Shown: piece by piece, positions 5,419 through 63,852 of the stretch
Layout: each line of letters begins with the position of its first letter
Numbering within the stretch: position 1 is the first letter of the stretch
Source: Siphonodentalium dalli
Taxonomy: Eukaryota; Mollusca; Scaphopoda; Gadilida; Siphonodentaliidae
Direction of reading: 5' to 3'
Assembly (NCBI GenBank): GCA_032622095.1
Contig: CP136061.1
Span: forward strand, 51,719,762-51,783,761
DNA: 64,000 bases
Notes under the pieces: model-generated
Seen by the model: the letters and a program-made list of their open reading frames with translations, nothing else
Databases searched by the model: none
What the model was told of the DNA's origin: nothing
Program-made: the position numbers and the translations under genes

Positions 5419-5545
5419 ATGAATAACAATTTTACAGTGGCAGGTGTGATAACTAAGAAACGGAATGGAGATAAATTAACGCAATGTGAGATAAACCACA
5501 TCATCAAAGGTGTCAGCAATGGAGAGGTTCAAGATTCTCAATTGG
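5419..5545 (+). CDS. TYMP: TYMP alternative first exon 1a
   Basis: It encodes 42 aa starting [20 protein letters not shown] and ending D-S-Q-L-G, the N-terminal helix pair of pyrimidine nucleoside phosphorylases. It ends in phase 1 at G|gtaagt, the same phase as exon 1b, so it can splice to exon 2 and give a 449-aa protein. No further TYMP exons lie between it and exon 1b, so it is an alternative or duplicated first exon, not a second gene. It keeps the K-K-R-x-G motif but is more diverged from the family than exon 1b. Confidence 0.85.
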
Positions 5546-8500
5546 GTAAGTCGTATATTAATCGTGAATTCTCAGCTATATGTAAGTCGTATATTAATCG
5601 TGGATTTTCTGCTAATTAAGGGCATAATAATCGTGGATTCTCAGTTGGGTGGGTAAGTGGTATAAATGTACATAGCCCGTCTGTGTTACATTAAATCTGC
5701 TCGGCGATTGGTCAACTCAATTGTTTAACCCGTTTCATTCCAAGAATAACACACAGACGATAACACGAACACGATGTCACAAATTGTTAATCTAATCTGA
5801 CCATATCACTTAAACGGTCAGCAGAATAATTGGGCGTGCTTTTCAAATTTCAACCGAATTGCATTTGAAGCCAGTTATTTATATCGATCACGTTATCGTT
5901 GCTATATGCTTGGAAATATTATATTTGGCTGACTTAATGTGAGGCGCGGGCTTGTCTCAAATTATCCGCATATTTTGTGAACATAGATAAGAATACACTC
6001 AGATTGTTTATGGGAACAAGTAATAAAAAAGCTGTATAAATATAATAAATGAAATTAATGGTGTGTGTTATTGGGGGATACGGCGCTGTGGTCGTACGGG
6101 GCTCATTTGGTGAGAACCGCTTTGCGGTTTACACAATGTGCCCCAACAACCACAGGACCTTACCCCCAATAATACACACACCCACTACATTAATTTCTTA
6201 AATTAATCGCGGCTTCTCAACTGGGCAAATGTTTGAATAACCATGGATTATCTTGCGGTGACACATGCTACAACTAGAATAGGTATATTACCCCTGACAT
6301 ATCCGCAATTATGTGACTAGTTGCTTATTTGTTTTACATATTATTCAACGTGGCTCCTTCTTTTCAAGCACTTTTTCTATCAGCATAAGCTAATCCCTTT
6401 TCGTTTCTTAACCATCTCATCCCCCAACTTATTTCTTCGTTTTCGTCACCTGTCAGGAATACAGCCATTCATTGAATGGCATACCGAATCAGTGACGATG
6501 AGCGTGTCGCTACGACGCGTGACACGGCGATTACATGTAACCTGTCATACTGCTGAACGTTGCCACCATGATGACCTTTAACGTGCCACATTGCTGAAAG
6601 CGGGACAGTGATGACACTTAACGTGCCACATTGACGAAGGCGGGACACGGCGATTCCTTTAACGTGCCACATTGCTGAATGCGGTGAGAATCTTTAACGT
6701 GCCATATTGTTGAACGCGGGACGCGGTGATGAACTTTAAAGTGCCATGCTGCTGAACGTCGGCACCGTGATGACCTTTAACGTGTCACATTGGTGAATGC
6801 GGGAGTCGGTGGTGACCTTTAACGTGCCACGTTGCTGAACGCGGGATATGGCGAGGATCTTATCGTGCCATATCCCTAAACGCGGGACATGCTGTTGACC
6901 TTTAACACGTGCCACATTGTTGAAAGCCGGACATGGTGAGGACCTTAAACGAGCCATATGTTTTAACACGGGACATGATGACCATTAACGTGGCAGTTGA
7001 AAATGTGACGCGGTGACGACCTTTACGTGCCACATTGCTAAATCAGGATCAAGATGATGACATTTAACGTGCCACATTGCTGAACGCGGGACACGGTGAT
7101 GACATGTGACGTGCCACATCGATGAACGCAGGGCAGAGAGGACCTGTAACATGCCACATCGATGAACGCGGGACAGAGAGGACCTGTAACATGCCACATC
7201 GATGAACGCGGGGCAGTGAGAATCTGTACCACGCCATATCGATGAAAGCGGGGCAGTGAGGACATGTAGCATGCCATATCGATTAACGCGGGGCAGTGAG
7301 GACCTGTAATACGTCACATCCATAAACACGGGGAAGTGAGGACCTGTAACATGCCATATTGATTAACGCCGGGCATTGAAGACCTGTAACATGCCACATC
7401 GATGAATGCGGGGCAGTGAGGACATGTAACATGCCACATTGATGAACGCGGGGAAATGAGGACCTGTAACATGCCACACCGATGAACGCGGGACAGTGAG
7501 GACCTGTAATATGCGACATCGATGAACGTGGGGCAGTGAGGACATGTAACATGCCACACCGATGAACGCGGGGCAGTGAGGACCTGTAACATGCCACATC
7601 GATGAACGCGGGGCAGTGAGGACCTGTAACATGCCACATCGATGAACGCGGGGAAATGAGGACCTGTAACATGCCACATCGATGAACGCGGGGCAGTGAG
7701 GACCTGTTATATGCGACATCGATGAACGTGGGGCAGTGACCACATGTAACATGCCGCATCGATGAACGCGGGGCAGTGAGGACCTGTAACATGCCACATC
7801 GATGAACGCGGGGCAGTGAGGACCTGTAACATGCGACATCGATGAACGCGGGGCAGTGAGGACATGTAACATGCCACATCGATGAACGCGGGGCAGTGAG
7901 CACATGTAACATGCCACATTGATGAACGCGGGGCAGTGAGGACCAGTAACATGCCACATCGATGAACGCGGGGCAGTGAGGACATGTAACATGCCACATC
8001 GATGAACGCGGGGCAGTGAGGACCTGTAACATGCTACATCGATGAACGCGGGGCAGTGAGGACATGTAACATGCCACATCGATGAACGCGGGGCAGTGAG
8101 GACCTGTAACATGCGACACCGATGAACGCGGGGCAGTGAGGACCTGTAACTTGCGACATCGATGAACGCGGGGCAGTGAGGACATGTAACATGCCACATC
8201 GATGAACGTGAGGCAGTGAGGACATGTAACATGCCACATCGATGAACGCGGGGCAGTGAGCACATGTAACATGCCACATTGGTGAACGCGGGGCAGTGAG
8301 GACCAGTAACATGCCACATCGATGAACGCGGGGCAGTGAGGACATGTAACATGCCACATCGATGAACGCGGGGCAGTGAGGACATGTAACATGCCACATT
8401 GATGAACGCGGGGCAGTGAGGACCTGTAATATGCGACATCGATGAACGTGGGGCAGTGAGGACATGTAACATGCCACATCGATGAACGCGGGGCAGTGAG

Positions 8501-63165: not shown

Positions 63166-63852
63166 GTAAGTATTCGATATACATTGACATACGTTTACCC
63201 GGTCGCTAGCTGTAAGTATTCGATATACATGGACATACGTTTACCCGGTCGCTAGCTGTAAGTATTCAATATACATGGACATACGTTTACCCGGTCGCTA
63301 GCTGTAAGTATTCGATATACATGGACATACGTTTACCCGGTCGCTAGCTGTAAGTATTCGATATACATGGACATACGATACGTTTACCCGGTCGCTAGCT
63401 GTAAGTATTCGATATACATGGACATACGTTTACCCGGTCGCTAGCTGTAAGTATTCGATATACATGGACATACGTTTACCAGGTCGCTAGCTGTGAGTAT
63501 TCAATATACATGGACATATGTTTACCCGGTCGCTAGCTGTGAGTATTCGATATACATGAACATACGTTTACCCGGTCGCTAGCTGTAAGTATTCGATATA
63601 CATGGACATATGTTTACCCGGTCGCTAGCTGTAAGTGTTCGATATACATGGACATACGTTTACCCGGTCGCTAGCTGTAAGTATTTGATATACATGGACA
63701 TACGTTTACCAGGTCGCTAGCTGTAAGTATTCGATATACATGGACATACGTTTACCCGGTCGCTAGCTGTAAGTGTTCGATATACATGGACATACGTTTA
63801 CCCGGTCGCTAGCTGTAAGTATTCGATATACATGGACATACGTTTACCCGGT
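63148..63852 (+). repeat. 46-bp array made of exon 5 end plus donor, ~15 copies
   Basis: The unit is tttacccggtcgctagct|gt + aagtattcgatatacatgga + catacg. Its first 18 bases match the last 18 of exon 5 except one (cccga to cccgg). I count 15 donors (gtaagt or gtgagt) including the real one. One copy has a 5-bp insertion near 63375. The array runs almost to the window end. Confidence 0.96.

Follow-up and report, generated by a model that had tools for sequence, protein, structure and literature searches.

Tandem arrays at exon ends in the scaphopod Siphonodentalium dalli: an asymmetry between splice donors and acceptors

In the genome of Siphonodentalium dalli we find tandem arrays whose outermost copy contains the end of a coding exon together with its splice donor, built in three cases from repeat units of local origin, while copies that span splice acceptors are rare. 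The bias is one of donors, not of exon-intron boundaries in general. As the best explanation we lean, with modest confidence, towards local tandem duplication that is filtered by the polarity of splicing.

The window, i.e. the whole stretch of 64,000 nucleotides analysed here, covers positions 51719762-51783761 of contig 1 in the 2.23-Gb, nine-contig assembly of S. dalli. On its + strand are two genes, thymidine phosphorylase (TYMP) followed by a 15-PGDH-like short-chain dehydrogenase (DH). TYMP exons were placed by tblastn, with E. coli deoA and with a typed query for the C-terminal part, DH exons by tblastn with a human 15-PGDH sequence. The following exons provide 24 coding junctions, 13 donors and 11 acceptors:

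5420..5545, + strand: TYMP alternative exon 1a (coding part); donor between 5545 and 5546 placed from the sequence; weak deoA tblastn match at 5431-5547, E 0.039
10480..10594, + strand: TYMP alternative exon 1b; tblastn E 2.6e-4; donor without a straddling copy
13109..13311, + strand: TYMP exon 2; E. coli deoA tblastn E 1.6e-13
15875..16103, + strand: TYMP exon 3; PDB match to E. coli thymidine phosphorylase, E 5.6e-28
17279..17397, + strand: TYMP exon 4; tblastn E 1.9e-7
20876..21038, + strand: TYMP exon 5; donor between 21038 and 21039; tblastn E 1.0e-7
24965..25192, + strand: TYMP exon 6; tblastn with the typed query, E 3.7e-14
30623..30763, + strand: TYMP exon 7; tblastn
35910..36049, + strand: TYMP exon 8 including the stop codon; weak tblastn match, E 1.1, and sequence
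41286..41378, + strand: DH exon 1; tblastn with the human 15-PGDH query, E 1.2e-8
54920..55043, + strand: DH exon 2; weak match, E 0.56, supported by order and splice sites
57970..58082, + strand: DH exon 3; E 2.5e-5
60564..60651, + strand: DH exon 4; donor between 60651 and 60652; weak match, E 0.19, with order and splice sites
63089..63165, + strand: DH exon 5; donor between 63165 and 63166; E 1.6e-6

Long open frames that look reverse-transcriptase-like by eye are present in TYMP introns 2 and 5 (13299-14998 on the + strand and 22353-24785 on the - strand). A second 15-PGDH-like dehydrogenase gene lies in tandem 3' of the window (99665-99769 and 123703-123825 in window numbering; loci L007 and L009).

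To be called covered, a junction had to lie in a 30-base stretch, with 8 or more bases on either side, that is repeated no more than 1 kb away at 22/30 identities or better. By this measure 6 of the 24 junctions in the window are covered, and these are the very six at which the sequence-only reading had described tandem copies; however, the two acceptors among them (TYMP exons 2 and 4) each have a single spaced copy and no array. The repeats and copies concerned are:

5533..5644, + strand: 36-bp repeat over the TYMP exon 1a donor, about 2.9 copies (TRF 5546-5644; junction copy at +36)
12449..12964, + strand: 72-bp repeat upstream of TYMP exon 2 (TRF; its likeness to the head of exon 2 is by eye only)
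12968..13053, + strand: further copy of the exon-2 acceptor of TYMP with the head of the exon, boundary between 12984 and 12985 (alignment at -124)
16576..16631, + strand: further copy of the region around the TYMP exon-4 acceptor, boundary between 16606 and 16607 (alignment at -672)
20985..21319, + strand: 134-bp repeat, 2.5 copies, with 54 exon bases and the TYMP exon-5 donor (TRF; single genomic locus)
60633..61146, + strand: 36-bp repeat, 14 copies, each unit with 19 exon bases and the DH exon-4 donor (TRF; single genomic locus)
63148..63852, + strand: 46-bp repeat, 15 copies in the window, each unit with 18 exon bases and the DH exon-5 donor (TRF)

The unit lengths given earlier for the four covered donors (36 bp at TYMP exon 1a, 134 bp at TYMP exon 5, 36 bp at DH exon 4 and 46 bp at DH exon 5) were recovered, while those given for the two acceptors need correction. 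At TYMP exon 2 the homology extends from about -17 to +69 at a spacing of 124 bp, in place of the proposed unit of ~70 bp, with one further copy. At TYMP exon 4 the copy spans about -31 to +25 and lies 672 bp upstream of the true acceptor; the proposed ~328-bp unit has a counterpart in a copy at 327-bp spacing (16340), which stands beside the acceptor copy but away from the acceptor itself. The acceptor scores of the two copies are 1.2 (true site 4.4) for exon 2 and 2.4 (true site 3.9) for exon 4, and some true acceptors of the window score no higher than these copies.

Arrays detected by TRF cross 3/13 donors and 0/11 acceptors in the window. Clear tandem arrays with an outermost copy that contains the exon end are those of TYMP exon 5 and DH exons 4 and 5; there, as at 8 donors of the kinesin sample described below, TRF finds the head-to-tail units of roughly 10-150 bp that characterize minisatellites. 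At TYMP exon 1a the TRF array begins at the GT, the exon side of the copy is a poor match, and the donor is no longer covered at 24/30 identities. Repeats also occur elsewhere around TYMP: a 22-bp repeat (10356-10464) ends about 15 bases before the ATG of exon 1b, a 41-bp repeat (36065-36145) starts about 15 bases after the stop codon, and a 40-bp repeat with some 60 copies (6569-9190) lies between exons 1a and 1b, where it keeps reverse-strand frames of more than 600 codons open, a mechanical effect and no sign of a gene.

The largest array is that of DH exon 5, whose unit consists of the 18-base exon end and 28 bases of intron. It resumes outside the window at 64997 and ends at 79323 (window numbering) with 312 more copies, so that by hand sums the array totals ~327 copies and makes up ~91% of the 16.5-kb intron. 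Among the downstream copies scored, 245/294 retain the GT, and mismatches per base are 0.083 for the GT and 0.027 for the intron part of the unit. The acceptor of this intron (79706) lies 383 bases beyond the array, and no copy of it reaches the chosen threshold within 1 kb; both junctions of DH exon 6, which begins at 79707 outside the window, are uncovered and enter no count. Intron gain in which both splice sites stem from the duplicated segment is thus not what is seen in DH intron 5, the one intron tested in this respect.

A genome-wide search, which skips very common words, returned a single locus each for the units of DH exon 4 and TYMP exon 5, and all 131 genome matches listed for the DH exon-5 unit fall at the DH exon-5 locus itself. 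Since the matches are confined to each unit's own locus, we rejected a transposon or introner origin for these three units; as far as seen within such a search they are local duplications and not dispersed elements, as had been supposed from the sequence.

Are six covered junctions more than expected by chance? Repeat coverage of the noncoding part of the window is 21%, and circular shifts of this raw coverage give 5.0 junctions expected against 6 seen (P 0.40). When each array is counted once, noncoding coverage falls to 6.7%, with 1.6 junctions expected against the same 6. We hold the latter null to be the fairer one, since the only copy of an array that can form a junction is the one next to the exon; the raw calculation counts each array many times and the junction once, and its verdict of 'no more than chance' was therefore set aside. 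Because the choice of the window itself had followed from the pattern, independent data were required.

We turned to kinesin exons: PF00225 gave 123 matches in the same genome, and 73 exons entered the sample, some of the others having been excluded for equal scores and the look of segmental copies. Splice sites were predicted from the sequence near the match ends, with a simple weight matrix of consensus frequencies and the open frame, which gave 61 donors and 72 acceptors; the donors of L021, L040, one of L048, and L063 were uncallable, and ends near the model ends were left uncalled. Exon L071 (50 bases of flank) was absent from the first kinesin set and added later. Myosin-head exons (PF00063) gave 85 matches, many of which cluster on contig 4 (G000, about 158-292 Mb), some with tied scores as if a gene had been copied many times. 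The results cover one genome and, besides the window, one gene family, with its 61 kinesin donors.

Copies spanning the junction are present at 11/61 kinesin donors but at only 1/72 acceptors (Fisher P 0.0012), and the sole covered acceptor belongs to an exon (L058) whose donor is covered as well. Two of the donors, L029 and L051, have chance-like matches; without both, the counts are 9/61 and 1/72 (Fisher P 0.0056). TRF arrays cross 8/61 donors, about one in eight, and 0/72 acceptors (P 0.0015), and a check that is free of the splice-site caller agrees, with TRF arrays crossing the 3' end of the kinesin match in 8/73 exons and the 5' end in 0/73 (P 0.0078). For nine covered donors the exon translation and phase were read, and by hand the phase of L041, L044, L058 and L059 fits the next exon. 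A symmetric tendency of duplications to arise at exon-intron boundaries, as had been suggested for the window, finds no support in this difference between donors and acceptors; the accompanying claim of placement beyond chance holds for donors, but not for acceptors. Raw repeat coverage over 110 junctions follows the same pattern: 0.17 at the donor, 0.13 about 20 bases into the exon and 0.13 to 0.25 deeper in the intron, as against less than 0.02 at the acceptor, with values of 0.04 to 0.08 in the 80 bases preceding it.

To compare both kinds of junction with introns, points in kinesin introns were treated like junctions, as the first copy of an array for donors and with an upstream copy for acceptors; the resulting P values are nominal, span several thresholds and take junctions as independent. 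Downstream copies are found for 9/61 kinesin donors against a background of 5.9% (P 0.009), and at 28/30 identities for 7/61 against 1.9% (P 0.0001), i.e. donors are enriched 2.5 to 6 times over comparable intron points. Acceptors with an upstream copy within 1 kb number 1/72 against 6.5% (P 0.048), and 0/72 at 24/30 (P 0.02), the depletion at 28/30 being not significant (P 0.175); within 400 bases the corresponding values are P 0.061, 0.028 and 0.213. The depletion of acceptors is thus only moderate and less secure than the excess of donors.

Two trivial sources of the donor excess were considered and rejected. With GC matching, 3.6, 2.7 and 1.1 of the 61 donors are expected at the three thresholds, values that are little changed, so that the excess stays in place and is not caused by the GC composition of exon ends. 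One-sided decay, in which the conserved exon copy keeps old duplications visible, is rejected as the main cause because the donor excess is largest at 28/30 identities.

Our proposed explanation is as follows. In a genome this rich in minisatellites, short segments would often be tandemly duplicated, exon edges included. When a donor is duplicated, the original keeps the leading place in the transcript, and its copies come to lie behind it in the intron; if splicing uses this leading donor, the mRNA would be unchanged and the array would be free to grow. When an acceptor is duplicated, the copy lies upstream and would be met first by the spliceosome, so that the exon would gain sequence and the allele would presumably be lost. 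The outcome would be arrays of near-identical donors where exons end and almost none where they start. What distinguishes the first donor is unlikely to be local sequence alone, since in the larger arrays downstream copies mostly keep the GT and near-identical flanks: among the 12 donor arrays scored, the GT is retained in 37/38 downstream copies at L060, 12/13 at L058, 11/12 at DH exon 4 and 1/2 in each TYMP array. The two acceptors of the window that carry copies count against such a filter, and the fact that both copies score below their own true sites counts in its favour. The scarcity near acceptors could alternatively reflect damage to the branch site or tract instead of use of a decoy. 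Tolerance due to polarity also predicts donors at the level of the intron background; as donors exceed this level, tolerance alone is insufficient, and the excess that it leaves unaccounted for may in part be added by a mutational bias or by a benefit to weak donors.

A mutational bias near donors may indeed be compatible with the data. In its pure form, as a hot spot where replication, transcription or R-loop structures at 5' splice sites raise the rate of tandem duplication, we think it rather unlikely: a donor excess that is strongest for near-identical copies is what would be expected if arrays often arise there, but the low coverage before acceptors is left unexplained by a hot spot alone, and the absence of a GC effect on the donor excess also speaks against it. 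That minisatellites are simply so abundant that some land on junctions appears quite improbable. Raw coverage does predict the window count, introns near kinesin exons have a raw coverage of ~18%, and donors and acceptors pooled in the first kinesin set (9/110) come near the array-once background of 7.1%; however, each array enters raw coverage with all its copies, counting arrays once puts donors above and acceptors below expectation, and the difference between the two does not depend on any background.

Selection for buffered splice sites, the other explanation offered by the sequence-only reading, would mean that multiple copies of a weak donor aid U1 recruitment or supply back-up sites and that arrays are kept for this reason. 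It fits weakly, in that covered donors score somewhat lower than uncovered ones in the kinesin sample (9 versus 52 donors, P 0.029) and in window and kinesin sample combined (13 versus 61, P 0.059), with L029 and L051 placed among the uncovered donors; but the comparison is post hoc and small, and one of its two tests is not significant. In the DH exon-5 array, moreover, the higher mismatch rate of the GT runs contrary to conserved back-up sites, and the second donor, if used, would shift the frame with its 46-bp offset. As the cause of the arrays, buffering seems distinctly improbable; for the copies as conserved back-up donors we make no claim, since mismatch rates position by position give a mixed picture that indels have in part distorted. 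The 13 donors that head arrays are those of kinesin exons L041, L044, L052, L058, L059, L060, L065, L069 and L073 and the four of the window; the last exon base is not G in 6/13 of them and in 13/61 uncovered donors (P 0.083).

We thus return to duplication filtered by splicing polarity. In its broader form, that about one donor in eight heads an array and acceptors almost never do, and that the difference is the trace left by a 5'-to-3' rule by which the first site wins, with or without a donor hot spot, we advance the idea tentatively and with some doubt. How the spliceosome chooses among equal splice sites is usually studied via single engineered duplications. Should donor arrays be as common as in this sample and splicing use the first copy, the genome would amount to a natural assay: in its many rows of near-identical donors in competition, local sequence hardly changes and order alone varies. 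It would also follow that tandem duplication can bring hundreds of splice sites into an intron and leave the gene intact, and that tolerance of duplication is not the same for donors and acceptors.

The arrays resemble ordinary intronic minisatellites in their local, head-to-tail units of tens of bases, and differ from them in that the outer copy includes coding bases and the exon-adjacent donor. For a genome-wide donor/acceptor asymmetry of repeats that span junctions our searches of the open-licence literature gave no earlier report. The splice-donor minisatellite of human IFI6 is reportedly a matter of one gene, while in S. dalli several genes are concerned, with up to ~327 copies and an asymmetry between donors and acceptors. 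The IFI6 case, which we know by its title in reference lists (PMC2572611, PMC3618361) as a minisatellite with multiple splice donors, is by that title alike in having a repeat that carries splice donors within one transcript; at 60651 and 63165, too, the repeat unit contains a donor sequence continuing the exon. In the potato RdRp gene a tandem duplication crosses an intron-exon boundary as in S. dalli, there on the acceptor side and creating a new intron (PMC4974935). The arrays of S. dalli, by contrast, lie inside introns, and the acceptor of DH intron 5, the one tested, lies outside the repeat.
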